This document shows positions 18,505 through 63,847 of a stretch of 64,000 bases of DNA, piece after piece. The position numbers were made by a program, and so were the translations under genes. The DNA comes from a bacterium (GTDB lineage: Bacteria; Patescibacteriota; Saccharimonadia; Saccharimonadales; UBA4665). Below the pieces are notes generated by a model. The model was not told the origin of the DNA and did no database searches. It saw only the letters and a list, made by a program, of their open reading frames with translations. How positions within the stretch are numbered: position 1 is the stretch's first letter; every line of letters starts with the position of its first letter. The stretch is from the NCBI GenBank assembly GCA_021811625.1, contig JAJZNU010000004.1, forward strand, positions 40,398 through 104,397, given 5' to 3'.

Positions 18505-18603
18505 ATGCGCAGCAATCACGATGGTTTTACTCTACTGGAACTCCTGGTTGTTATCGTCTGTGTCGGCATCTTAGTGGCACTCATTTTTACCTTCCGCCAC
18601 TGA
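18505..18603 (+). CDS. 32-residue mini-prepilin
   Basis: Too short for the ORF track. The ATG at 18505 follows CGGGGGTGAT (good ribosome-binding site) and the promoter above. The product MRSNHDGFTLLELLVVIVCV... has a complete class III prepilin signal: a short basic leader, the G/F cleavage site, the Glu at +5 and a hydrophobic helix. It stops right after the helix at FTFRH. There is no globular head. It could be a truncated pilin gene, or a real helix-only pilin that packs in or modulates the fibre. It lies far from the pilus locus, beside the F1-like ATPase operon. Confidence 0.6.
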   Translation: MRSNHDGFTLLELLVVIVCVGILVALIFTFRH

Positions 18604-18677: not shown

Positions 18678-19421
18678 TCATAAACCATGATCCAAACTAC
18701 TGTAAAAGTTTAAATTGCATGCGTGATCAACGTCCAGTGCCGTGGTGTATTGGGTTATCCACGGCATACTAGCGCCGAATCCTGTGTTCCGGCAGGCATC
18801 CAGCGCTGGAGCTAGGCTGTAACCACCGGTGGCTTCCCATGTCGGCAGGTTTATACGCCAGTCGCCAACGATAGCGGTCCATTGGGTAGGGTAAGAGTAC
18901 AGGCCTACGATGGCGAGGAAGACATTCTGATGGATGGCATCGATAGCACCCTCCAGCGAGGCGCGGTTAGCAAATGTATTAGTTGTCCAGCTGTTATCGG
19001 CCTCAACGTCCAACCACCATAGTGGACTGTGTATGCCTTGGGAGTCGGCATAACGTATGCTATAGGCAGTGGCGGTGTATCCGTAGTTATAAGCCCGACA
19101 GAGTTTGTCGCTGGCCCTACAGTGCCTAGGCCCATTGTCACGCCGCTTACCATAGACAATACCTGGATATCCGGTATTGGCATACAGGGCAACGTGTCCG
19201 AACCAACTTGCTTCCTTATCGAGACACGGATTCATCCGGAAGTCCAGGCCGCCGTTTACGCCAACTATTGCCCAAATTGAGTTCGGGGGAGGCCGCACTC
19301 CACAATTTGGCCATGAAACGTCATATATTGTTTGGTCATTAGTTGGAGGGGTCATAAAAACACTTAATGCTGCCGCGGAGCTAAGCAAAAGTACGACTAT
19401 TAGCGCAACCAGACGACCCAT
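18678..19421 (-). CDS. Secreted GH25-like glycoside hydrolase domain protein
   Basis: A 247-aa protein with a signal peptide (LVALIVVLLLSSAAALSVFM) and a domain opening YDVSWPNC, then WAIVGVNGGLDFRMNPCL, SPLWWLDVEADNSW and VGLYSYPTQWTAIVGDW. This is the layout of GH25-like / DUF1906-type TIM barrels known from actinobacteria and CPR. The D-x-E of WWLDVE occupies the position of the GH25 acid. Several cysteines suggest disulfides. It may cleave peptidoglycan or a host wall polymer; the substrate is unknown. It is divergent from polA. Confidence 0.7.
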   Translation of the reverse strand: MGRLVALIVVLLLSSAAALSVFMTPPTNDQTIYDVSWPNCGVRPPPNSIWAIVGVNGGLDFRMNPCLDKEASWFGHVALYANTGYPGIVYGKRRDNGPRHCRASDKLCRAYNYGYTATAYSIRYADSQGIHSPLWWLDVEADNSWTTNTFANRASLEGAIDAIHQNVFLAIVGLYSYPTQWTAIVGDWRINLPTWEATGGYSLAPALDACRNTGFGASMPWITQYTTALDVDHACNLNFYSSLDHGL

Positions 19422-19511: not shown

Positions 19512-22163
19512 ATGTCTGGGGACGAACGGCCGAAGAGATTTGTAATTATTGACGGAAAGTCGGTTTTTTACCGAGGTTATTATGCTATGCCAAACTTAAA
19601 CGCTCCCGATGGAACTCCGACCGGCGGGGTTTTTGGTTTTGCCGTTATGGCACTGGAGGTTATTAAGCGTCTTAAACCGGATTATGTAGCCGTTGCCTGG
19701 GATAAGCCGAAAACCAATATTAGACGTCGAATTGAACTTTATCCGGAATATAAAGCAGGTCGCAAACCGGCGCCAGCCGACTTTTATGTCCAAATTCCGA
19801 TTCTGCATGAGCTTCTCGATGCCTTCGGTTGGCCACTTTACGAATTGGACGACTATGAAGCCGATGACATCATGGGCACATTAGCTAAGCAGGCTCACGA
19901 AAAAGGGATTGAGACTCTCTTAATCACATCTGATTTGGACGCACTACAAGTCGTCGGTCCACTGACTAAGGTATACATTCTAAAAACCGGGCTCAGCAAT
20001 ATAGAGCTTTATAGTCCGGCGAGCTTCGAAGCCAAATACGGGTTAAAGGTTGATCAGTTCTTAGATCTAAAAGCTCTTAAGGGCGATAGTTCGGACAATA
20101 TTCCTGGAGTTCCGGGTATTGGCGAAAAGACTGCCACCGATTTATTAAAGCAGTTCAAGACACTCGATGGCATCTACGATAATCTAGGACTAATCAAGGA
20201 TTCTCTAAGGAGAAAGTTGGAGGCCGGTAAGGACTTAGCGATTCTGAGCAAAAAACTGGGGGCCATATGGCTTGATGCCCCTATACAGCTTAATTTGAAT
20301 GAAGTTGACGGCAGCAAGGTCCAACCGGAAAAAGTTCTAGAGCTACTTGAAAAATTAGGTTTTAAGTCATTGGTGCGTCAATTACCGGAAGTAATGCAGG
20401 TGGCGCTGGACAATCACAGAGTATCTAAAGGGGATAGTACGCCTAAGGTTCTTCCGAAGCGCGTATTGATCGACAGCGACGATAAACTAAAAGCGCTGAA
20501 GTTACAGGACTTGGACTATCTATTTGTTTACAGTCGGGCATTGGGGGCGCATGGACTGAATCCGGAAATAATAGCCCTTGCCAGCCTAAAAGAAGTCTAC
20601 GTCCTGCAGCTTACAAAACTAAACCGGAATGTAGTTAGATCTAAACTTGAGTCGGTTAAATCTGTGGTAGGATACGATGTCAAGAGTACGCTCGAAGTCT
20701 TTCTGCAATTAGGTGTTTTGATGCCTGACGTTACCCATGATATTCAGGTTGGAGCGTTCTTGCTGAACCCCTTGAGGCGCGATCGCACCCTCGGCGAGCT
20801 GGCTGCTAGTGATCTGGATCTCAGTGAAAAGTTGTTCGACAACCTGGCTCCCGACGAGCTACTGGATAGGTTGCCGCAGATCATGAGTGCAATAAAAGAG
20901 CTGTATGAGCTCCAGATCAAAGAGCTCAACAAACATAATAGGCTCAACAAACTGGCTAAAGATATCGATTGGCAGATTATCCCCGTACTCGCCAAGATGG
21001 AATATATCGGTATCGAGCTTGACGTCGGTTATCTCAAAAAAATGGCCGGCCGAGTAGATGATGCCATTAGTGATATAGCTCAGCAAATCTACGGTTATGC
21101 TGACAAGGAGTTTAACATATCGAGCCCTTCGCAACTCGCGGAAGTATTGTTCGTGGATATGAATTTGTCCAGAGAAGGTATCAAAAAAGGCAAGAGCGGC
21201 TATTCGACAGCAGCCAGTGAACTCGACAAACTCCGCGGCAGTCATCCGATCATCGACTTAATTAGCGGGTACAGGGAAGTGACCAAGCTTAAGAATACCT
21301 ACATCGACACCTTGCCTAAACTTGTTGACAGCAAATCCCGTCTTCATACGACATTTAATCTAACTATCGCTCAAACCGGACGCCTTAGCAGCACCGATCC
21401 CAACCTCCAGAATATCCCGGTTCGCACTGATCTTGGTAAGGAAATCCGGACAGCTTTTGTAGCCGGCAAAGGACGTCGGCTGGTTAGTGCCGACTACAGC
21501 CAGTTTGAACTGAGAATAGCGGCCTACCTGGCTGGCGACGATAATCTTATTGAACAGTTTAACCAAGGGATAGACGTCCACGCCGCTACGGCCGCCGAGA
21601 TATACAACCGGGATCCTGACGACGTTACTAAAAATATGCGGCGCGAAGCTAAAGTAGTCAATTTTGGCGTTATGTATGGACTTAGCGCCCACGGCCTCGT
21701 AGCCGCCACCGGAATGAGCTACGAGCAAGCTCAGAAGTTTATTAAAAGGTATTTTGAAGTTAGACCAAAATTACTCAGCTATATTGAGTCGATAAAGGAG
21801 AGAGCCAGGAGCGAGGGATATGTCGAAACATTATTTGGACGCCGCCGGCCAACTCCTGACGTACATTCCGCCAATTTTGCGGTTAGGGAAGCTGCTATGC
21901 GCGCGGCAGTAAACATGCCCTTCCAGGGAACGGCCGCTGACATTATGAAGATGGCTATGATCGGTGTCGACAAGAAATTAGAAAAGCAGTTTCCAGCATC
22001 CAATATTTTGCTACAGATTCACGATTCCTTGATAGTCGAGTGTGACGAAAGGGATGTTCACGCTGTTTCCAATCTTGTTAAGGAAAGCATGGAGGGAGCT
22101 GTTAAGTTGAAGGTAAAACTCACTGTCGACGTCTCCACTGGTCAGAACTGGGGCGAATTGTAA
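19512..22163 (+). CDS. polA: DNA polymerase I
   Basis: An 883-aa, full-length protein. The 5' nuclease (1-300) has FVIIDGKSVFYRGYYAM, YEADDIMGTLA and KGDSSDNIPGVPGIGEKTA. The central 3'-5' exonuclease fold is present, but the D-x-E motif is not visible (LDYLFVYSRALGAHGLNPEI), so proofreading is probably lost. The polymerase (about 490-883) has motif A DYSQFELRIAAYL, motif B RREAKVVNFGVMYG and motif C QIHDSLIVE. Motif C is usually QVHDE, so the acidic partner of the metal-binding Asp is Ser here. It fills gaps in repair and removes RNA primers. Transcribed alone; fpg further downstream belongs to the same repair theme. Confidence 0.96.
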   Translation: MSGDERPKRFVIIDGKSVFYRGYYAMPNLNAPDGTPTGGVFGFAVMALEVIKRLKPDYVAVAWDKPKTNIRRRIELYPEYKAGRKPAPADFYVQIPILHELLDAFGWPLYELDDYEADDIMGTLAKQAHEKGIETLLITSDLDALQVVGPLTKVYILKTGLSNIELYSPASFEAKYGLKVDQFLDLKALKGDSSDNIPGVPGIGEKTATDLLKQFKTLDGIYDNLGLIKDSLRRKLEAGKDLAILSKKLGAIWLDAPIQLNLNEVDGSKVQPEKVLELLEKLGFKSLVRQLPEVMQVALDNHRVSKGDSTPKVLPKRVLIDSDDKLKALKLQDLDYLFVYSRALGAHGLNPEIIALASLKEVYVLQLTKLNRNVVRSKLESVKSVVGYDVKSTLEVFLQLGVLMPDVTHDIQVGAFLLNPLRRDRTLGELAASDLDLSEKLFDNLAPDELLDRLPQIMSAIKELYELQIKELNKHNRLNKLAKDIDWQIIPVLAKMEYIGIELDVGYLKKMAGRVDDAISDIAQQIYGYADKEFNISSPSQLAEVLFVDMNLSREGIKKGKSGYSTAASELDKLRGSHPIIDLISGYREVTKLKNTYIDTLPKLVDSKSRLHTTFNLTIAQTGRLSSTDPNLQNIPVRTDLGKEIRTAFVAGKGRRLVSADYSQFELRIAAYLAGDDNLIEQFNQGIDVHAATAAEIYNRDPDDVTKNMRREAKVVNFGVMYGLSAHGLVAATGMSYEQAQKFIKRYFEVRPKLLSYIESIKERARSEGYVETLFGRRRPTPDVHSANFAVREAAMRAAVNMPFQGTAADIMKMAMIGVDKKLEKQFPASNILLQIHDSLIVECDERDVHAVSNLVKESMEGAVKLKVKLTVDVSTGQNWGEL

Positions 22164-44244: not shown

Positions 44245-44261
44245 GTTTTCTTACGGATACC

Positions 44262-44684
44262 TTAGCTAACATCATCTAATGATTTAATACTAATCCCGTC
44301 AACTTTCACTTTTAATAGCTCGTGGTCATTGGTCCAGAATTCAGTTGCTTTTACATTCAAGGCTGTTGCTAAATGAATTGAGTCTATGTTTTTAAGTTTT
44401 GCCCCAACCTCGGCACAAAGTTCAGCCGCTTTGTCCGCAATATCCTCGGAAACACTTACGAATGAAATAAACCCAAAACCAGACAAGAATTGTTTAGTTT
44501 TCTCACCTATTTCCTCAGATACTTGATAGGGTTGATGCAAAATTTCAGTTCGAGCTATAGTCGATAAGTATACCGAGTCTCCAGTATTCTCAAGTCTTTT
44601 TAGTAAATCTAGAGCACGCTTTGAGAACGGGCTGTCGTCATCAAGTACGTAGATAAGTATATTAGAGTCCAGTGCGACTATCAT
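44262..44684 (-). CDS. PIN-domain toxin (VapC-like)
   Basis: A 140-aa protein. The acidic metal-binding residues of PIN nucleases are all visible: D6 in ALDSNILIYVLD, the Glu in IARTEIL, the Asp in NIDSIHLATAL and the Asp in FWTNDHEL. It likely cleaves RNA. The start overlaps the antitoxin stop (TAATG), the usual coupling of toxin-antitoxin pairs. Confidence 0.88.
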   Translation of the reverse strand: MIVALDSNILIYVLDDDSPFSKRALDLLKRLENTGDSVYLSTIARTEILHQPYQVSEEIGEKTKQFLSGFGFISFVSVSEDIADKAAELCAEVGAKLKNIDSIHLATALNVKATEFWTNDHELLKVKVDGISIKSLDDVS

Positions 44685-44911
44685 TACTCTTGGTCTCTCC
44701 GATTTCTTAGTAACTCAGCGGGGTCGCCATGACTTGTCCAGATGCCCCTAAGAGCACCGATATTTTGATGCCATACTGGCTTAGTTGATATAACAATATC
44801 ACCACTATCATTAACAGTAGGGTAGAGCTTCATACCTGGTTTGATGCCAGCCTTTTGGCGTATCAGTCTCGGAATAACAATTTGATTCTTGCTTGAAACG
44901 GTTGTAGTCAT
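44684..44911 (-). CDS. AbrB/SpoVT-type antitoxin (VapB-like)
   Basis: The start is set at the ATG 44911, giving 75 aa and the classic swapped-hairpin opening MTTTVSSKNQIVIPRLIRQK AGIKPGMKL. The longer track ORF would run through the promoter. The C-terminal part (VWHQNIGALRGIWTSHGDPA ELL) would bind and neutralise the PIN toxin. Such antitoxins repress their own promoter. Confidence 0.85.
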   Translation of the reverse strand: MTTTVSSKNQIVIPRLIRQKAGIKPGMKLYPTVNDSGDIVISTKPVWHQNIGALRGIWTSHGDPAELLRNRRDQE

Positions 44912-44917
44912 ACATAT

Positions 44918-44946
44918 AGTATACTTTACATAATTAAAAAAGTAAA
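44918..44946 (-). promoter_or_regulatory. Toxin-antitoxin promoter with palindromic operator
   Basis: Minus-strand TTTACT, 17-bp spacer, TATACT; the -10 lies inside the palindrome AGTATACT. Only 6 nt separate it from the antitoxin ATG, so the mRNA should be leaderless. The palindrome is a natural operator for the AbrB-type protein. Confidence 0.6.
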
Positions 44947-45611
44947 GCGGAGTTTTAATAAATTTACTTTTGACTCGAAACACCTACTCACATGTTCAAG
45001 GACTCTATATACTTTGGCGCAGTAGCCTCGCGTCCGCTTATCGTCTGGTTCAGGCAGGAGAAATGACGGTTCAAAAGGTTGGTTCATTCCGTAACAATGC
45101 CCACACGGAGGGAAATCATGTAATCTATTGTCAGGCAGTGAATGGCAGCACGTAAGTATATTTGTAAGCAAGCAAGAATATGCCAAGTTCCAAAACAAAT
45201 AAAGTACTCTTACGATACTACAATCACACTTGGGAGGCACTGGAGATTTTTTGCCTCACCTGTAAACCTAGACCAAGTCGAATTGGTCCCATAAACCAGT
45301 GACCGAAATACAGCATGTCGGCGAGTTGTTTTGTCACATGGAGTTCAAACAGACAAGATCGTTGGCGGTCCAGGCGCAATTACTGGACCAAACCCAATAG
45401 CTGACTGTAGAGTAAAAACTCTATTACCGGGTATTGTTTGGAACTGGTAAGCAACGTTACGGAAGTATTATCATTACGTGGTCTGTAATAACGAAACATC
45501 GGGCGACACTCATTATGGATCAACAATCAGACAATAGCCAACCAATACATGATTTTGCTGAACTCTTTCTTATTCACTATTCCTGATGTGCGTAGAGATA
45601 GCCCAGGTTCT
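44947..45611. other. Gene-poor stretch with two strong hairpins
   Basis: I see no convincing gene; the track ORFs (104 aa minus, 61 aa plus) have no family features. Two perfect inverted repeats stand close together: GGTCCAG/CTGGACC (45367-45389, 9-nt loop) and TAGAGT-AAAA-ACTCTA (45408-45423). They could belong to a structured RNA or be remnants of an inserted element. Confidence 0.4.
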
Positions 45612-47261
45612 TTACCAACTGATTTTTACGTATCCGTCGCTTTGAGAAGAAGTTGAGTAGGAAACACTAGTTGCGCTGCTCGTCGCCCATGAAGAACCGC
45701 CGCCGCCGCCGCCGCTAGCTGCATCCGAGAAAAAAGCCGCTCCGCCGCCGCCGCCGCCTTTGTAGCCGCCGCCGCCACCACCACCATATGCATTGGTCGT
45801 GGAGCCTCCATTTCCGCCCGTACCGTTACTACCATTGCTCCCAGATTGCCCAGAATTTGAAGCAATATACGTCCCACCGGTTCCGTCTGAACTCTGACTG
45901 GCGCCGGTACCGCCATAAGCTCCACCAGACGCAAAATAATATGACACCCAGCCAGAGCCACCATCAGTGCCATTCGGGTTACCACCAGCTCCTCCCACCC
46001 CAGTTGCGCAATAAGCACTACCTCCGCTATTACAGTATCCACTACCGCCACCACCACCGGCTTCCACGACTTCGACCGATCCGTCTAATACCGCCGATGA
46101 GCCTCCGCCTCCAGCCCAAGAACCGTTGCCGCCTTGATGATAGCCGCACCCACCTAAATAATTACCATGTTCGCCCACGTAGACGTTGAGTGTATCTCCG
46201 GGATGGACGGGCACATCCGCATTGACGACGCCACCAAATCCACCAGGAATGTTGCTACTATTAAAGCCGCCATTGGCCTGACCAGTGCCTCCCTGGCCTC
46301 CGACTGCCTCTATATTCACGCTCGTAACGCCCGATGGCACGGTTAACGTTTGTTCAGTACAAGTACTATTAGCTAGAAATGTTTGACTGCCGGGAGGAGG
46401 CGAGGCATCTACCGTAATGCTGCCTCGGCAATAAGTATTCCAAGCCGTTACCCAGAAATAAAAAGTAGTTGTTCCAGTCCCCACTGGCGGAGTGGTTAGA
46501 TTAAAGTTCGCCTGTCCTATAAGCGTGCTTCCGCTACTTACGTTTTGTAGGTTCCCAGCAGCCGGAGAGAAGGAAGATGACGATAAACCAGATGCCGTCC
46601 ACGGCCCCCTATCCACATTGTTAAATTGAAAGGTTGCTGTAGCGGTGTGACTACCGCCACCGGAAAAACTATAAGCCCCTCCGGTGTCGCTTAGGCCTGA
46701 TCCCGCGAGAGAAACGTTGCCACAGACGGGTGCGGTTGACCCATATCCAGGAACCAAGGGAACTTTTGCGGCAACATCGTTCGGATAGAACCGATAGTCT
46801 AAAGAGGTGCTGTCGGTACCTGCACCACCGGCTTTATACCATTGTGCTGTTACTTGTATCTGTGTCCAATCTGCCAAAGGAGAAGTATCGGAAATATATA
46901 TGTGGTAGTTTGGCACTGATGAGTTAGAGGGCTGATTAGACGAATTAAAGTTGCAGGTACTGCTTTGTCCAGGTGTCGTGGAAATAACCCCAGGAGCTGG
47001 CGCACTACTCTCAAGGCAAAAATCATTGTTTGCAGGGGGAGTACCTAGCGTTACGCTTTCGTTACCTACAAGAGCCCGTAGTAATTCGATTTGGGACTGC
47101 ACCAGTTGTAATGCTCCACCTCTTTCCTGTGTTTGAAGCTCAACTGATTGATCAGTGTTGACTCCCGTGAACCCAGCAACCACAATCATACCAATTATGG
47201 AGGTAGCGATAAGCACCTCAACAATCGTATCGCCTTTTTCTGATAGGCTCATAATTTTCAT
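45612..47261 (-). CDS. Giant minor prepilin with Gly-rich C-terminal domain
   Basis: A 549-aa protein. The N-terminus is a prepilin signal (SEKGDTIVEVLIATSIIGMI) in which Asp occupies +1 after Gly and Glu is at +5. Residues 1-190 are closely related to the 580-aa pilin in the main locus (EVLIATSIIGMIVV, NQSVELQTQERGGALQL-type strand, YKAGG.G..SL.YRFYP). From about 320 it becomes a different, Gly-rich domain opened by VPSGVTSVNIEAVGGQGGTG, similar to that of the 1-2549 protein. It is encoded far from, and opposite to, the pilus operon. Likely a pilus-tip or side adhesin. Confidence 0.8.
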   Translation of the reverse strand: MKIMSLSEKGDTIVEVLIATSIIGMIVVAGFTGVNTDQSVELQTQERGGALQLVQSQIELLRALVGNESVTLGTPPANNDFCLESSAPAPGVISTTPGQSSTCNFNSSNQPSNSSVPNYHIYISDTSPLADWTQIQVTAQWYKAGGAGTDSTSLDYRFYPNDVAAKVPLVPGYGSTAPVCGNVSLAGSGLSDTGGAYSFSGGGSHTATATFQFNNVDRGPWTASGLSSSSFSPAAGNLQNVSSGSTLIGQANFNLTTPPVGTGTTTFYFWVTAWNTYCRGSITVDASPPPGSQTFLANSTCTEQTLTVPSGVTSVNIEAVGGQGGTGQANGGFNSSNIPGGFGGVVNADVPVHPGDTLNVYVGEHGNYLGGCGYHQGGNGSWAGGGGSSAVLDGSVEVVEAGGGGGSGYCNSGGSAYCATGVGGAGGNPNGTDGGSGWVSYYFASGGAYGGTGASQSSDGTGGTYIASNSGQSGSNGSNGTGGNGGSTTNAYGGGGGGGYKGGGGGGAAFFSDAASGGGGGGSSWATSSATSVSYSTSSQSDGYVKISW

Positions 47262-47547
47262 ACGGTTATATATTGTTTAATAGTGTGCAGTTAGAGACTT
47301 TCCTCATCTTTATAGTGCTGTTCCATCAGGATGTTTGTGGCGTATAAATTCAAAGTAAAAAACCTTTAGTCGTTGGATTACAACAGATTGACACTGAAGT
47401 GCCTGGAAGTCGTCGGAATTCATCCACATCTTCATAAGTGTACCATGAGCGCTATACTTCTTCGACAACATTCCGAGGGGTAGATTTCGAAAAAACTTAG
47501 AACTAGTCATTAATAGCGTTTTTGAGGTTTTTAATAAAAGGCATACA

Positions 47548-48243
47548 ATGTTTTATATACTTAAGTTATTTGGGAATGAAGTCGGGAGGTTCATTATTAA
47601 TCCACAGGATTCTGGCAATACTTATCCAGGAGTCGTAAAGATCGAGCGGCCAAAAAGAGGGTTTTTACACACCAAAATTGGGTTTGCGATCATTGCGACC
47701 GCAATCGTGATAGTGGTATTTTCGATCTTACTTTTAACACGACCAAATTTACGGGCTACGATTTTTTTTGAGAAATTCAGAACCTATTCGTTGGTGTCTT
47801 CAGGCAACACTTACCACTTGACGTTCTTCAAGGGAGCCACTTTAAAAAAACTGAAGGGTAACCAAGTACTTGTGGCGCCGGCCACTACTCAAGACCCTGT
47901 ACCCGTTTTTATCGGTATATTGCAATTGCCAGAAAAGATTTCACCTCAATATGAAACTTCGTTAACGGCTTGTGCCTCCCCATTCACTTCGATGGCGTTT
48001 AAGACCTTCTTGCCCTTAAATAAATCGACCATTTCGGTGTGTCGGACAAGTAGCGGGGAACAAACTATTGCATATGATGCCGCTTTTATTGTTGGGGCAC
48101 AACCGTACCTAATTAGTATTAGCTCATTTACTCCTAATAGTAGACCCAGTACAGTAACCACGCGCCAAGGCACAATAATCAGCTCAAAAGCTTTGTCCTT
48201 AAACGAACAAGACGCCAAAACAATTATTTCATCTATCCGCTAA
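47548..48243 (+). CDS. Membrane-anchored hypothetical protein
   Basis: A 231-aa protein: about 45 cytoplasmic residues, one membrane helix (IGFAIIATAIVIVVFSILLL), then an extracytoplasmic region with IFFEKFRTYSLVSSGNTYHL TF and ISSFTPNSRPSTVTTRQG. Two cysteines (TACASPF, SVCRTSS) may pair. No family recognised. It is AT-richer than the neighbouring housekeeping genes and sits in the accessory stretch. Confidence 0.6.
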   Translation: MFYILKLFGNEVGRFIINPQDSGNTYPGVVKIERPKRGFLHTKIGFAIIATAIVIVVFSILLLTRPNLRATIFFEKFRTYSLVSSGNTYHLTFFKGATLKKLKGNQVLVAPATTQDPVPVFIGILQLPEKISPQYETSLTACASPFTSMAFKTFLPLNKSTISVCRTSSGEQTIAYDAAFIVGAQPYLISISSFTPNSRPSTVTTRQGTIISSKALSLNEQDAKTIISSIR

Positions 48244-49022
48244 ACTAAGCAAACTATCTAGTGCGGATAGTATTGCACTTATGCTGCCTTACGCAGATAG
48301 CCAAAAGGTCTAGAAAGTGGATGAAAGAGATACGTTGCTCGACAAGAGTTAACTACTCTTAGATATGTACTATTAGCCGCTAGCTTTCTTTTCGGCGGTG
48401 CCTTTAAAAACGGAGATGGATCAAGTGTGTCATCCCCCTACAACCCAGAAGTATTCGACAATTGTTAGTGCCGGAAATACTTGTTAACGTCTAGACCGCG
48501 TCAGCCTAGAATAGCCTAAGTTTATTGGCACATGTACTGGGTCTCCGAGAAGCGCGTTTATAGAACCAGCTTTATCAACAAAATTGTCCACAGCAGTCAA
48601 TAGGCTAACCCACTCAAAAAAGTATGTTTTTTAATAATGTCTGGCTGACAGGGTTACAGAGGAGGTTGGTAGGGATAAGTGTTAGCACCTCGGTCAGCAT
48701 TATGTACTGGTTGGTGATGAGCAAGAACAAGAAGCTATGAATATAATCCGACACTACGCTTCTGTCTATGTATAAGTATGCGCGAATTTTAACTAAGGAG
48801 ATAGTCCGCGACAACCATTAAATGACCGCTAGCCTGCACAGGCTATCCGTTCAGAATATGATGATGTGGTTCAGCTATTCCCAGAAAAAGCTGGGTTCGG
48901 CTTAGCCCGTTAAGCGCTTAGAGCCCGAAACGGTGGCTATTTAGTAACGCGGAGCGTTAGTTAAAGAAGCGACCACAAAAACGCTCATGAGCTCGATATC
49001 TGGACTTGTGGTGTTTCGCTTA
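48244..49022. other. Gene-poor stretch before the pilus locus
   Basis: No supported gene. The 66-aa minus ORF (48614-48814) has no family features. A short reading frame around 48847-48906 (IRSEYDDVVQLFPEKAGFGL) ends at a stop and may be a pseudogene scrap. Weak hairpins occur (AAGAGT/ACTCTT near 48350, CCCAG/CTGGG near 48880). Confidence 0.35.
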
Positions 49023-55953: not shown

Positions 55954-56057
55954 CCGTTCCGGCATTACTGTGGATAAGTATTTGCTATTCGTAACGGTTA
56001 TCTGTATTATCCAAGCATAAGCTAAATATTTAAATGCGCAAAGGGGGCATTTGCACA

Positions 56058-56594
56058 ATGTTACAAGGATTGTATCAACAAAATAAAAAACAAGAAGGCT
56101 TTACTATAATCGAAGTCCTGATTGTCTTGGCAATAGCTGGATTGATTATGCTTATAGTCTTCCTGGCTGTTCCGGCGCTTCAGCGAAACACTCGTAATAC
56201 TGGCCGCAAGAACGATGCCAGCAGGATCGCGACCGCCGTCAACGACTTTGTTTCAAATAACTCAGGTACTCTACCCAGTACAGTAGCTGATTGTCAGACG
56301 GTCATGAATGACGCGGGCACGCTGTCTCAGTATACTGATTACAAAGGTGCGAATAACGGGTGTGTTACGTCTTTAGGTACACCGGCAGCTAATGCTCTGG
56401 ATATTGAGGCGGTAACGTCAAGTGGTAACGCACCTAATCCACCAGCTGTGAATGAGCTTATACTATATACCTCTGCACAGTGTGGTAGTTCACAAGGAGC
56501 ATATACACTTGGTACTCCTCGTCAAGCAGCTTTAATGTACTCAATGGAGTCTGCTGGTGGTGGATATCAATGGGCATGTCTCGACGCTCAATAG
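56058..56594 (+). CDS. pilA: Major prepilin candidate (PilA-like)
   Basis: A 178-aa protein from ATG 56058, which has AAAGGGGGC about 10 nt upstream; the track start at 56034 would include that site. The leader LQGLYQQNKKQEG is followed by FTIIEVLIVLAIAGLIMLIV, with Gly-1, Phe+1 and Glu+5. The head has four Cys (ADCQTVM, NGCVTSL, AQCGSSQ, WACLDAQ) and ends with a C-terminal disulfide-type loop. A strong terminator follows, fitting high expression. Confidence 0.88.
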   Translation: MLQGLYQQNKKQEGFTIIEVLIVLAIAGLIMLIVFLAVPALQRNTRNTGRKNDASRIATAVNDFVSNNSGTLPSTVADCQTVMNDAGTLSQYTDYKGANNGCVTSLGTPAANALDIEAVTSSGNAPNPPAVNELILYTSAQCGSSQGAYTLGTPRQAALMYSMESAGGGYQWACLDAQ

Positions 56595-56679: not shown

Positions 56680-57510
56680 ATGTTAGCATACATATTGCTG
56701 ATAACGGGACTGATTTTTGGAAGTTTTATTGGGGCATTGGTTTGGCGCGTACGTGAAACAAGTGTGGGTATAATTAGTAGCTCGAAACAAACTTCTGTTA
56801 ACCTCTCGATAGTCAAGGGACGTAGTGTGTGCCCAAATTGCTATCATTTGCTTCATCCAAGGGATCTGATTCCCGTTTTTAGTTGGCTAACCCTAAGAGG
56901 AAAATGCCGCTATTGTCACAAACCCATCTCAGGAATATATCCAATTCTAGAACTGTTAACAGCTGGTCTATTCGTATTTTCATATTACTTCTGGCCGGCT
57001 ACTTTGCGCGGTATAGGGTCGTTCGTGTTTATTACCTGGCTAATAATTCTTGTTGGTCTAATTGCATTATTGATATACGATGCAAAATGGTTTCTACTTC
57101 CCAACAGAATCGTGTACCCGCTTACAGTTATTGCTGTCTTGCGACTGGGTATTGTTGCGATCTGGAATCATGATGTGTCAAGCCAGCTTCTAGGTGCATT
57201 GAGCGGAATCATACTAATTTCCGGCACATTCTTGGTGTTGTATCATATTTCCAAGGGTAGCTGGATTGGCGGCGGTGACGTTAAGCTCGGAGTGCTGCTT
57301 GGGATTCTTGTCGGCGGTCCCCTGAATAGTATCTTACTTCTAGTTATTAGCTCATCCGTGGGCACAGTTTATGCTCTACCTATGGTAGTCAGTGGTAAAG
57401 CTAGTCGTAAAACTCAAGTACCATTCGGACCTTTTCTTATTATCGGTGCGATTGTAGTGACACTATTCGGTACGTCAATTACACATTGGTACAGACACCT
57501 CTATATTTAG
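56680..57510 (+). CDS. pilD: Prepilin peptidase PilD
   Basis: A 276-aa polytopic membrane protein. The N-terminal domain carries the zinc-type CPNCYHLLHPRDLIPVFSWL ... CRYCHKPIS. The two catalytic aspartates lie in LIYDAKWFLLPNRIVYPLT and GGGDVKLGVLLGILVG. It removes prepilin leaders before the G/F site and N-methylates Phe1; it would process all the pilins in the window. TGGTAATAT lies 9 nt before the ATG. Confidence 0.93.
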   Translation: MLAYILLITGLIFGSFIGALVWRVRETSVGIISSSKQTSVNLSIVKGRSVCPNCYHLLHPRDLIPVFSWLTLRGKCRYCHKPISGIYPILELLTAGLFVFSYYFWPATLRGIGSFVFITWLIILVGLIALLIYDAKWFLLPNRIVYPLTVIAVLRLGIVAIWNHDVSSQLLGALSGIILISGTFLVLYHISKGSWIGGGDVKLGVLLGILVGGPLNSILLLVISSSVGTVYALPMVVSGKASRKTQVPFGPFLIIGAIVVTLFGTSITHWYRHLYI

Positions 57511-57550: not shown

Positions 57551-58525
57551 ATGAAAGGCAACCCCCGGCCAGCCGGGTTTACTATTATAGAGGTCATGAT
57601 TGTACTGGGGGTTTCTGGAATTTTATTTCTGGCTGCCGCCCTCATGATAGCTGGACGACAGAACCGAACAGGTTTTACTACCTCAATTCAGTCCTTCAAA
57701 GCTGAGATGCAACAAGTAGCAAATGACGTTGCGAATGGCTATTACCCCGGATTCAGCAATTTTAGTTGTTCCCAGGGAGGGACTCCACCAACAGGACAAC
57801 CCATACTGAGCTACCCGGGGACTCAATCTCAGGGTACCAACGGTGGGCTGTCAACCTACACTGATACCTTGCAAGGGTGCAGTTTTTTGGGGAAGGCAAT
57901 TCAGTTTGGAGTAAATACTTCTGACTCGTCACTCATTAATATATATCCAGTGGTTGGTAATCTGGAGAGCGTAGATGGCTTACCAACAGAAGGGCTGTCG
58001 GGCTCTTATCCGGTTTTGTTAGCGCAAAGCGGATTTGGTACGCCAAATGCTAACTTTGCAACCACTGAATTTATCGAGCAGTACAATCTGCAGTATGGTC
58101 TTAATGTCGCCTGGATGTGTTACAGCATGTCGCCAAGCTCTTCTTGTGATGCTTCGTCTTACGACAACCAGAGCATGTCACACTATCAGACCGCAGTGAT
58201 TGTCTTTTCTACTAATCAGTCTAATGCCGGCAGTGGGGCAAACCAGTCTTTTGGAACCCAACAATTAGCTTTTGCTCCGATACCCGGCACAACACTCGGA
58301 CAACAGCCTACATCCACGGTCGATACGGTGAATAATTATTTGGATAATCCTACACCTAACGATCCTACTGGTTATAATGGCATCTTGATTAACCCTCCTG
58401 GTGGAATATCGGTCTGTGTGGCTGACTCAACGACTAATGAGTCGGGTCTGCTAACAATCGGCGGTAATAATCGGGCGGCCCAGATAAGTATGACCATTCA
58501 CGATGGGAGTACTGATTGCTCATGA
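57551..58525 (+). CDS. Minor pseudopilin, PulG/GspH-like
   Basis: A 324-aa protein opening MKGNPRPAGFTIIEVMIVLG, a short leader and G/F site with Glu+5. The head is about 290 residues, larger than most pseudopilins, with cysteines in FSCSQGG, LQGCSFL, WMCYSM and DGSTDCS. Extended -10 TGGTATAAT lies 10 nt before the ATG. It heads a four-gene minor-pilin operon and overlaps the next gene by ATGA. Confidence 0.85.
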   Translation: MKGNPRPAGFTIIEVMIVLGVSGILFLAAALMIAGRQNRTGFTTSIQSFKAEMQQVANDVANGYYPGFSNFSCSQGGTPPTGQPILSYPGTQSQGTNGGLSTYTDTLQGCSFLGKAIQFGVNTSDSSLINIYPVVGNLESVDGLPTEGLSGSYPVLLAQSGFGTPNANFATTEFIEQYNLQYGLNVAWMCYSMSPSSSCDASSYDNQSMSHYQTAVIVFSTNQSNAGSGANQSFGTQQLAFAPIPGTTLGQQPTSTVDTVNNYLDNPTPNDPTGYNGILINPPGGISVCVADSTTNESGLLTIGGNNRAAQISMTIHDGSTDCS

Positions 58526-60261
58526 AAACTCCTTTGAATGCAGACGGTGATACCATAATCGAAGTTCTTATCGCAACATCAATTATAGGTATGATCGTGG
58601 TAACTGGATTTGCAGGGGCTAACTCCAATCAGAGCGTAGAACTCCAGACACAGGAAAGAGGGGGCGCGTTACAACTAGCACAGACTCAAATCGAGGAGGT
58701 GCGAACGCTGATAGATAATGGCTCCATTACGCTAGGGAGAGCACCGGCTAACGGTGATTTCTGCATCGATAATAGCACCTCGCCCCCGAGTGTTATTGCT
58801 ACTTCATCTGGTCCTGGAAACACTTGTAACTTTAGTGCTTCAAATATGTTATCTTCCGTAACACCGAATTATCATGTATATCTTTCCGATGTTTCAGGAA
58901 ACTGGACTCAAATTCAAGCTTCGGCACAGTGGTATAAAGCCGGAGGTAGCGGCCGGGAAAGCCTTTCTCTGCAGTATCGATTTTATCCGTCGAGTATGGC
59001 ATCTTCTATACCACTAGCTCAGGGCGATGCCCCCTCATGCACGCTTAGTCTCAGCTCAAATGCGTTTTACACTGCGGGTACACATTCAGCCACAGCAACA
59101 CTACAATTTTCTAACTACCCGGATACTCCATGGAATATTTCGCTTTCATCGAGTTCATCTTCATCGAGATTGTTGTCATCACTTTCCGGTACTGGACCGT
59201 TTCCGGGGGTACCTGATGGTCAGACGTCTACCTTCACACTAACAACGGCTAGCAGTAATAGTCCAGCTACCTATACCGCAACTGTCGAGGATTATCGTGG
59301 ACAGAGCATGTGTTCGGCAACCATAGCTGTTACCCCAACTATTTCAGATAATTTCGATCGGCCCGACACGGGAACACTAGGTAGCACTAGTGTCGGGCAA
59401 GTACCATGGGTTAATCTAGGTGGGTCGTCGTGGTCAACAACCACGAATGGTGGTGGGCAGGCTATTACCAGCACTCCTGATTATAATAATCCAGCGGCTA
59501 TTGTGCAGCTGGGAGATCCAAACGCAACAGCATCCATTGGCATAAGCAGCAATGGGGGTAACGATGCACTCATTCTTAGGGCACTAGGATCAAGTGACTA
59601 CTTGAGGTTGAGATCTCAGATTATCGCATCTCCGTACTCCTATTTGGTACAGACTGGATCTCAGCAAAATTCCGGGCCAGTCTGCCCTCCAGGACAGGGC
59701 TGTTCGTCTAGCACCACTAGCAACACCACGTTTTCGTATGGATGGGTTGGCTCGGGTTACTATCATTCTTCAACCCCTCAGAACTACGGCGGCGGAGCCT
59801 GCAATAGCAACAACGTTGGCGCCACAGAGAGTAGCTCGAGCCCCGCATACGACAGCAATGGCCATCCACGTGGGTATAATGTTGATGTGTCGACGTGTGA
59901 AATAACGGGCAGCTCGACCACCTATACGACAACATATTACTGGACTACTTATACATATACGACGGAATCCGGAGTTAATTATTCAGATTATCTGTTACTT
60001 GAGGAAGTTGTTAACGGCTCAAGTGTTAGCGTTCTTGATAATGCCCTGGTAGGTTATAGCCCTTATGGCCCGAGTACTTTAAAGGGTGTGGTGTCGGGAA
60101 ACAACATAACGGCCTATACGAATCTAAGCGGCTCGCCGGCTTTCTCTTATTCCACCTCCATCGATTCTACGGGATCAGGGTTTGGTATTGGTAGAGGGGC
60201 AGGGTCGTCACCTGGCTACACGAGCAGCGATTTAAACAATTTTATTGTACAAGGTCAATGA
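58522..60261 (+). CDS. Giant minor prepilin with LamG/concanavalin-like C-terminal domain
   Basis: A 579-aa protein from ATG 58522, coupled to the preceding stop; the track's TTG is less likely. The first ~190 residues (GDTIIEVLIATSIIGMIVVT, NQSVELQTQERGGALQL, YKAGGSGRESLSLQYRFYPS) are nearly the same as in the 45612-47261 protein. The C-terminal ~300 residues are unrelated to it and start TISDNFDRPDTGTLGSTSVG, an opening typical of bacterial concanavalin-like domains. It is a pilin scaffold carrying a large sugar- or protein-binding head (inference). Confidence 0.85.
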   Translation: MKTPLNADGDTIIEVLIATSIIGMIVVTGFAGANSNQSVELQTQERGGALQLAQTQIEEVRTLIDNGSITLGRAPANGDFCIDNSTSPPSVIATSSGPGNTCNFSASNMLSSVTPNYHVYLSDVSGNWTQIQASAQWYKAGGSGRESLSLQYRFYPSSMASSIPLAQGDAPSCTLSLSSNAFYTAGTHSATATLQFSNYPDTPWNISLSSSSSSSRLLSSLSGTGPFPGVPDGQTSTFTLTTASSNSPATYTATVEDYRGQSMCSATIAVTPTISDNFDRPDTGTLGSTSVGQVPWVNLGGSSWSTTTNGGGQAITSTPDYNNPAAIVQLGDPNATASIGISSNGGNDALILRALGSSDYLRLRSQIIASPYSYLVQTGSQQNSGPVCPPGQGCSSSTTSNTTFSYGWVGSGYYHSSTPQNYGGGACNSNNVGATESSSSPAYDSNGHPRGYNVDVSTCEITGSSTTYTTTYYWTTYTYTTESGVNYSDYLLLEEVVNGSSVSVLDNALVGYSPYGPSTLKGVVSGNNITAYTNLSGSPAFSYSTSIDSTGSGFGIGRGAGSSPGYTSSDLNNFIVQGQ

Positions 60262-61063: not shown

Positions 61064-62182
61064 ATGAATCAGACACCAAGAATTAAACTGTCAGAAGACC
61101 AGTCGGGTATGGCTTCGATTCTGATCACCATGATATCCATGATTGTTATAGCTCTTATTGTGGCTGGTTTTACCCAGATTTCTCTTCACGAACAACGCGC
61201 CGCTTTGGACAAGGTGCTGAGTACCCAAGCACTTGATGCTGCAGAGAGCGGCGTAAACGATGCCCAACATACCATAGAGGCAAATATACAGTCTAATACC
61301 CCTATACCGGCTAAAACGACCTGTTCGGGTAGCGATGCTAACTATCCCAGCAATCCCAATCTTGATCCGACTCACAATATAAGATATACCTGTCTACTAG
61401 TCGATCCTCAGCCTTTATCTCTGGTCTATAGCTCTATTTCAGACCAGTCAAAAATAGTGCAGGTTCAATCGATAAATACTATGGGCCCATATAATATCCA
61501 GACCTTGGTCTTGAGCTGGCAAGACACTACTCTTCCGTCAAGTAATTTTGCCTGCAGTGGAAATAATTACCCGTATTTTCCTCCCATGTCCGGGTGGAAT
61601 TGTAGCGCAGGGGTTATTAGAATGGACATCGTTCCATTTAATGATCCTTCCTCTGACAGGGTAGTGTTTCTTTACCCAACAGCTAGCAATACTCAAAATG
61701 GATACGGGACCCTCGATTATGCTGATTCAAGTAAGAACGGATCAGTCATTCCAGCCCAGTGCTACTCCACGAATGATGCAGTAACAATGCCTAATATGTG
61801 TAATGTGGCCATATATGACTTGAGCACGGATAACGACGGCGGATACTTTATTCGTTTAAAGGCATTGTATGGTAATCAAACGGTCACTATTACGGCGCCT
61901 ACGGGGAATAACGATGCGGGAGCTATTCAGTGCATTGCTACCGCACCACACTGCAATCTCTTTAATTTCATTAACGATCAGGTTTTGGTCGATTCCACCG
62001 GGCAAGCCCAGGATGTCTTAAAACGTCTTCAGGTCCGAATTCCGATAAATCCATTAGACAGCAATATCGTTCCGAATGCCGCTATTCAGTCTACCAACTC
62101 CATCTGTAAAAAGTTCTTCGCAATACCTAGCACCGACACCCTTGTCGACACTGCTCCAGGTGACTGTAGCACGAACCCATAG
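61064..62182 (+). CDS. PilX/GspK-like pilus protein
   Basis: A 372-aa protein. Hydrophobic N-terminal helix SGMASILITMISMIVIALIV with Gly before Met instead of Phe and no Glu+5 (the PilX/GspK condition), then QALDAAESGVNDAQHTIEAN, the 'A.aaAEsGi..A' helix of PilX. The head is ~300 residues. CATAAT lies 10 nt before the ATG. Last gene of the pilus locus; its stop lies within an inverted repeat. Confidence 0.82.
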   Translation: MNQTPRIKLSEDQSGMASILITMISMIVIALIVAGFTQISLHEQRAALDKVLSTQALDAAESGVNDAQHTIEANIQSNTPIPAKTTCSGSDANYPSNPNLDPTHNIRYTCLLVDPQPLSLVYSSISDQSKIVQVQSINTMGPYNIQTLVLSWQDTTLPSSNFACSGNNYPYFPPMSGWNCSAGVIRMDIVPFNDPSSDRVVFLYPTASNTQNGYGTLDYADSSKNGSVIPAQCYSTNDAVTMPNMCNVAIYDLSTDNDGGYFIRLKALYGNQTVTITAPTGNNDAGAIQCIATAPHCNLFNFINDQVLVDSTGQAQDVLKRLQVRIPINPLDSNIVPNAAIQSTNSICKKFFAIPSTDTLVDTAPGDCSTNP

Positions 62183-63772: not shown

Positions 63773-63847
63773 GCCCCTGTAGTTCAACGGATAAAACAAT
63801 TCCGTCCTAAGGAGGAGCTGGAGGTTCGAATCCTCCCGGGGGCACCA
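63773..63847 (+). tRNA. tRNA-Arg (anticodon CCT)
   Basis: The acceptor GCCCCTG pairs with CGGGGGC; the D arm is GTTCAACGGATAAAAC. The anticodon loop GTCCTAA carries CCT. The T arm GGAGG-TTCGAAT-CCTCC is perfect. CCA is encoded at the 3' end. The outermost anticodon-stem pair is A-G. It reads AGG arginine codons. Confidence 0.93.

Follow-up and report, generated by a model that had tools for sequence, protein, structure and literature searches.

Unrelated C-terminal domains on a shared type IV minor pilin scaffold in Saccharimonadales

All Patescibacteria in culture are obligate episymbionts, and the type IV pili (T4P) of Saccharibacteria are used for twitching and for binding to the host (PMC12206443). 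Saccharibacteria are themselves obligate episymbionts and have reduced genomes, and little is known of the way in which they recognise the bacteria they live on. In T4P and type II secretion systems, the HIJK minor pilins form a tip complex that initiates filament assembly (PMC8179133, PMC9934059). The two modular pilins of the Streptococcus sanguinis system, PilB and PilC, are adhesins composed of an N-terminal pilin module and a C-terminal module, vWA in PilB and a concanavalin-like lectin in PilC, and models place them together with the I-like PilA at the tip of the pilus (PMC8179133, PMC9934059). Nanosynbacter lyticus TM7x, a member of the Saccharibacteria, has T4P-1, which drives twitching, and T4P-2; its locus 1 encodes PilV1 and PilW1, pilV1 could not be deleted, and extra C-terminal domains are reported on PilX1 (a jelly roll) and PilX2 (a beta-propeller), the deletion of the latter lowering host binding (PMC12206443). 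The Kil Tad pilus of Myxococcus xanthus has several alternative minor-pilin tips with variable domains for contacting other bacteria (PMC12075869).

We analysed a 64,000-nucleotide stretch of DNA (the window) encoding two pilins, VcG and VcD, which differ from these systems in several respects. Whereas the S. sanguinis modules are located on different pilins, here two unrelated heads are borne by one I/PilV-like scaffold, with turnover between close relatives. In TM7x, PilV1 is described as elongated by variable loops and as having no extra domain (PMC12206443), while the domains found here, compared with it by description, are on the I/PilV-like slot. The Kil pilus is a Tad system, in which the unit of exchange is a whole minor-pilin complex and not a head on a single scaffold (PMC12075869). 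GspI and PilV of the HIJK minor pilins are alike in gene order and in a weak profile similarity, but the scaffold scores below the curated cut-offs of their models. Canonical GspI and PilV are not known to have such heads. Modular pilins are thus already known, and earlier work listed them mainly as different architectures; what is new, within the open-licence literature, is slot-specific head turnover, seen here on an orthologous predicted tip pilin.

The pilin locus and its surroundings

VcD sits within a complete T4P locus in the order pilM, pilN, pilO, pilB, pilT, pilC, 186-aa pilin, pilD, 324-aa pilin, VcD, 252-aa pilin and 372-aa pilin; the VcD start codon and the stop codon of the 324-aa pilin gene overlap (ATGA). 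VcG is a solitary pilin gene in the interval between ychF and pilM, next to a PIN/AbrB-like pair. The features are as follows.

44245-48986: variable ychF-pilM interval, containing VcG, the PIN/AbrB-like pair and a 231-aa membrane-like protein
45612-47261, minus strand: VcG, ATG at 47261, 549 aa
48987-55953, plus strand: T4P machinery pilM, pilN, pilO, pilB, pilT, pilC (from translations; collinear in congener G001 and kept in relatives' loci)
56034-56594, plus strand: 186-aa pilin, PilA1-like by position and motif (Pfam N_methyl, E 3e-8)
56680-57510, plus strand: pilD, prepilin peptidase (from translation; same position in relatives)
57551-58525, plus strand: 324-aa minor pilin, H-like by position (NCBIfam gspH, sub-threshold, E 6e-5)
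58522-60261, plus strand: VcD, 579 aa
60276-61034, plus strand: 252-aa minor pilin, J/PilW-like by position (N_methyl, E 1.9e-5; order kept in relatives)
61064-62182, plus strand: 372-aa minor pilin, K/PilX-like by position (PilX_N, sub-threshold, E 0.007; order kept in relatives)

No scaffold copy other than VcG and VcD was found in the genome assembly (639 kb, 74% complete). Around VcG, the search for RNA elements gave nothing but a tRNA at 63773, and the promoter and terminator scan gave no informative signal. Elsewhere in the window, a 32-codon open frame at 18505-18603 (plus strand) combines a strong prepilin motif (DGFTLLELLVVIVCVGILVALIF) with an early stop, and is a truncated or degraded orphan pilin; at 18678-19421 (minus strand) lies a 247-aa secreted-looking protein, GH25-type lysozyme-like by eye.

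A scaffold and a stalk common to VcG and VcD

The similarity between VcG and VcD is confined to two consecutive segments.

46737-47261, minus strand: VcG residues 1-175, pilin scaffold with the GDTIVEV prepilin motif, a long alpha-1 helix and two conserved Cys (identity to VcD, AlphaFold, profile E 2e-43 over positions 4-160)
46401-46736, minus strand: VcG residues 176-287, stalk segment, diverged from the VcD stalk (z = 7.5 versus shuffles)
58522-59025, plus strand: VcD residues 1-168, pilin scaffold in the locus-1 I/PilV-like slot
59026-59331, plus strand: VcD residues 169-270, probable Ig/FnIII-like beta-sandwich stalk (AlphaFold, weak Foldseek matches)

The original prediction was of a common N-terminal pilin part of ~190 residues. 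The shared scaffold is real, while its extent has to be redrawn: the pilin part comprises ~170 residues, and is followed by a separate related stalk of ~100-110 residues. The pilin parts share 63-65% amino-acid identity (z = 84 versus shuffles) and 65% identity at the DNA level over 411 nt. The stalks (VcG 176-287, VcD 169-270) align with z = 7.5, a score reached in 0 of 2000 shuffles. Beyond them, the last 262 residues of VcG and the last 309 of VcD give z = 0.35, and 706 of 2000 shuffles score as high, in agreement with the earlier view that the C-terminal domains are unrelated; these shuffle tests rule out that the two heads are diverged relatives of each other.

In the AlphaFold models, both pilin parts adopt a long helix and a beta domain, with ~85-94 pLDDT over much of the length. 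In VcG, the helix spans residues 12-66 and is followed by beta strands (pLDDT mostly 66-94); in VcD, the helix (10-65) and beta domain (mostly 68-94) are followed by a lower-confidence beta-rich segment. In this segment, the VcD stalk is modelled with six strands at a mean pLDDT of roughly 41-74, and Foldseek matched it only weakly to beta sandwiches of the Ig/FnIII type, no hit reaching E <= 0.001. The predicted models suggest that the stalk is probably Ig-like.

The scaffold has the hallmarks of a class III signal peptide, namely a short leader, a Glu at +5 and a hydrophobic N-terminal helix, and pilD is in the same gene cluster as VcD. The prepilin motif reads GDTI[IV]EV, and the E at +5 is invariant in 30/30 aligned sequences. 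The cleavage site is unusual in that a conserved GD replaces GF, and VcG and VcD both fall short of the N_methyl cut-off. A profile of the scaffold, built from 30 sequences, matched at full length (positions 4-160) in VcG and VcD alone among the window pilins. The 186-aa pilin matched over positions 5-58 only, through its helix (E 5e-9), and the other window pilins gave no match. A generic pilin feature, found in all minor pilins, is therefore ruled out as the shared part in this search, as the other pilins of the window match the N-terminal helix at most.

The scaffold is the third pilin gene of the Saccharibacterial T4P locus 1, and in most loci inspected it is the second of four consecutive minor pilin genes, whose neighbours are labelled H, J and K from sub-threshold matches. 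Across the order, the gene order at this slot in most loci inspected is H-like pilin, scaffold, J-like pilin, K-like pilin, xerC and ndk, which resembles H-I-J-K. The gspI and PilV models (TIGR01707, TIGR02523) match the scaffold below their curated cut-offs, the best match in relatives being gspI with E 6e-4 and 20 bits against a 44-bit cut-off, so we term the scaffold I/PilV-like and do not assign it as a member. It is present in 77 of 93 family genomes, and its relatives include Saccharibacteria/Saccharimonadales MAGs. In the order as a whole, 299 of 393 genomes gave a match with E <= 1e-8, a count that probably includes helix-only matches, since the 186-aa pilin of the window reaches 5e-9 by its helix alone.

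Heads on the scaffold and their turnover

45615-46400, minus strand: VcG residues 288-549, Gly-rich head (Pfam PF12810 ALK_LTK_GRD)
59332-60258, plus strand: VcD residues 271-579, head of 309 aa, concanavalin-like by eye only

The Gly-rich nature expected for the VcG head is borne out by its match to ALK_LTK_GRD (E 1.3e-5, 25.8 bits, gathering cut-off 24.5), which carries modest weight as this is a low-complexity family. The head is also related to a Gly-rich fragment in the slot of congener G001 (z = 10.5) and to the slot head of G056 (z = 8.0). For the VcD head, no Pfam, PDB-sequence, phage, plasmid or viral-contig match and no convincing family- or phylum-wide match was found, its AlphaFold model mostly has pLDDT < 50, and Foldseek gave no match with E <= 0.001; with no profile match and so low a model confidence, the concanavalin-like label could not be confirmed. 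AlphaFold resolved neither head, presumably because there are too few homologues. The Gly-rich part of a very large protein in another genome (L123 in G028, open frame 2854), with an apparent tail-fibre-like end, is weakly VcG-head-like.

Among the 150 strong matches listed for the order, the open frames are bimodal in length: 112 have <= 240 codons (headless), 38 have >= 280 (headed), and none falls between 238 and 291. Most relatives are headless, implying that the core role does not require a head. The suggested search of relatives also yielded further heads. Pfam matches above the cut-off identify a C-type lectin (Lectin_C, L100), PA14+CBM60 (L041) and a polysaccharide lyase (L086) in addition to the Gly-rich head of VcG, and matches below it point to GH16 (L044), whose sequence retains ELDTVE (the ExDxxE motif), and SdrD_B (L047). 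In a BLAST grouping, the long C-terminal regions fell into about 19 groups; VcG and VcD were linked only by a 59-residue match, which fits the shared stalk.

On a machinery tree of PilB/PilT/PilC/XerC from 42 loci (25 headed, 17 states), the head state requires at least 21 changes and its presence or absence at least 8; these counts pool gain and loss, the tree gives no direction, and some low-complexity tails may be counted among the heads of unassigned fold. Several of the compared genomes are fragmented MAGs, in which assembly errors could affect single loci.

Different heads also occur in close pairs, with machinery 88% identical between the window and G001, 84% between L039 and L047, and 84% between L088 and L101. 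G001, the single congener compared, is collinear with window positions 24606-56275. The gene directly before its 252-aa-type pilin, the place of VcD in the window, ends in a Gly-rich head, of which 88 aa are read up to the contig edge; any scaffold attached to this fragment would lie beyond the edge, and a tandem arrangement is possible. It thus appears that one species has the Gly-rich head in the slot, while the other has an unrelated slot head and the Gly-rich head elsewhere. In G190, two tandem slot genes have scaffolds 68% identical and unrelated heads (z = 0.6), one of which is a polysaccharide lyase, and the second is also found on the one slot gene of G193. In G011, a slot copy and a GH16-like orphan copy have scaffolds 45% identical and unrelated heads (z = 0.6). 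An orphan copy at a common site in genus g38 carries a head in three species and lacks one in two.

As shown by sequence comparison, the scaffold is homologous and occupies a fixed slot order-wide, and is followed by nothing or by one of many unrelated domains that turn over between close relatives. The comparative data strongly support the proposal of swappable heads on a common scaffold.

We also considered whether heads occur on T4P-1 only where T4P-2 is missing. This was ruled out, as a second-type PilM is present in most headed family genomes (G008, G009, G011, G056, G072, G089, G090, G091) and in headless ones; G000 and G001, without it, are 71-74% complete. Other enlarged pilins were seen in passing. 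Pilin-like proteins of 508-527 aa (L048, L049, L050 in G020, G074, G087) adjoin a second-type pilM or pilC in L048 and L049, and similarly in L050, and that of L048 has CarboxypepD_reg domains, making it a different modular pilin. In family f37 (L085, L086, L089, L090, L091), the K/PilX-like pilin is enlarged to 730-1059 aa, which suggests extra domains. The T4P loci L037 and L038 (G010, G054) are identical though the genomes are placed in different genera, and one of the two assemblies is probably contaminated.

A candidate tip socket and the origin of VcG

We consider it probable that VcD and VcG belong to the modular type IV minor pilins and are built on one scaffold, a tip socket whose heads are exchangeable and often directed at glycans. 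After processing by PilD, the scaffold would join its H, J and K partners in the complex that initiates the pilus and forms its cap, and stalk and head would project outward from the tip. Targets of the heads would be polysaccharides on the surface of the host bacterium or of a substrate, which they would bind or, in some lineages, cleave, and PilT-driven retraction would draw the cell in. Sharing the scaffold, VcG and VcD would be rivals for a single tip position, so that one cell would have two alternative tips. By analogy with S. sanguinis PilB/PilC and TM7x PilX2, the predicted role of VcG and VcD as tip adhesins for host contact is plausible. A broader version, which we hold tentatively, is that the slot may be an order-wide docking site for head cassettes, which would be swapped between close species through recombination where scaffold meets stalk, that two-copy genomes may build alternative tips, and that the slot may determine episymbiont attachment. 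A slot with a species-variable head is a definite candidate for the basis of specificity, readable in any genome sequence, and the heads (lectin, CBM60, lyase, Gly-rich) are separate soluble domains that can be expressed for ligand tests.

An old duplication of a minor pilin, whose low-complexity C-terminal ends then diverged, would give ordinary paralogues with no domain exchange and no adhesive role. The VcG and VcD scaffolds themselves differ by 35%, both tails are rich in Gly/Ser/Thr and the divergence of the stalk is graded, as this account would expect; we nevertheless regard it as quite improbable, given that related loci carry discrete, mutually non-homologous head families (lectin, PA14+CBM60, lyase, Gly-rich) on homologous scaffolds, and that the abrupt loss of similarity recurs in the G190 tandem pair and the G011 slot/orphan pair. 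The modular-tip reading, which we prefer, leaves room for different ligands. Several heads are carbohydrate-active or -binding (CBM60, polysaccharide lyase, GH16-like), and could bind or degrade substrate or environmental polysaccharide, as in biofilm or polymer capture, instead of recognising a host bacterium. This seems less likely, against the obligate episymbiosis of all cultivated Patescibacteria and the use of Saccharibacteria T4P for host binding and twitching (PMC12206443), though the sequences fit either use.

As to VcG, the original prediction was that one copy had moved to an accessory region. Its place agrees with this, as VcG lies in the ychF-pilM interval, where G001 has a different AbrB/PIN-like pair and a methyltransferase-like gene and no pilin, while the direction of any move does not follow from the comparison. 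The difference between the window and G001 can be read in two ways, as relocation of VcG or as replacement of the slot head. Possibly, VcG is instead a cargo gene of this variable interval, gained from another relative, and not a moved duplicate of VcD. The contents of the interval differ in the congener, and the 35% difference between the VcG and VcD scaffolds exceeds the 12% between the machineries of the two species. Against such a gain, no donor with a closer scaffold was found, and VcG and VcD are by far each other's nearest scaffolds (61-65%, versus about 31% or less for the others aligned); we entertain it tentatively. Within the otherwise different interval, a stretch of ~85 nt (45003-45084 in the window, about 21323-21403 in G001:C23) is 73% conserved. 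It occurs once in the window, and may be what is left of a small coding sequence, or else a site linked to the toxin-antitoxin-like pairs.
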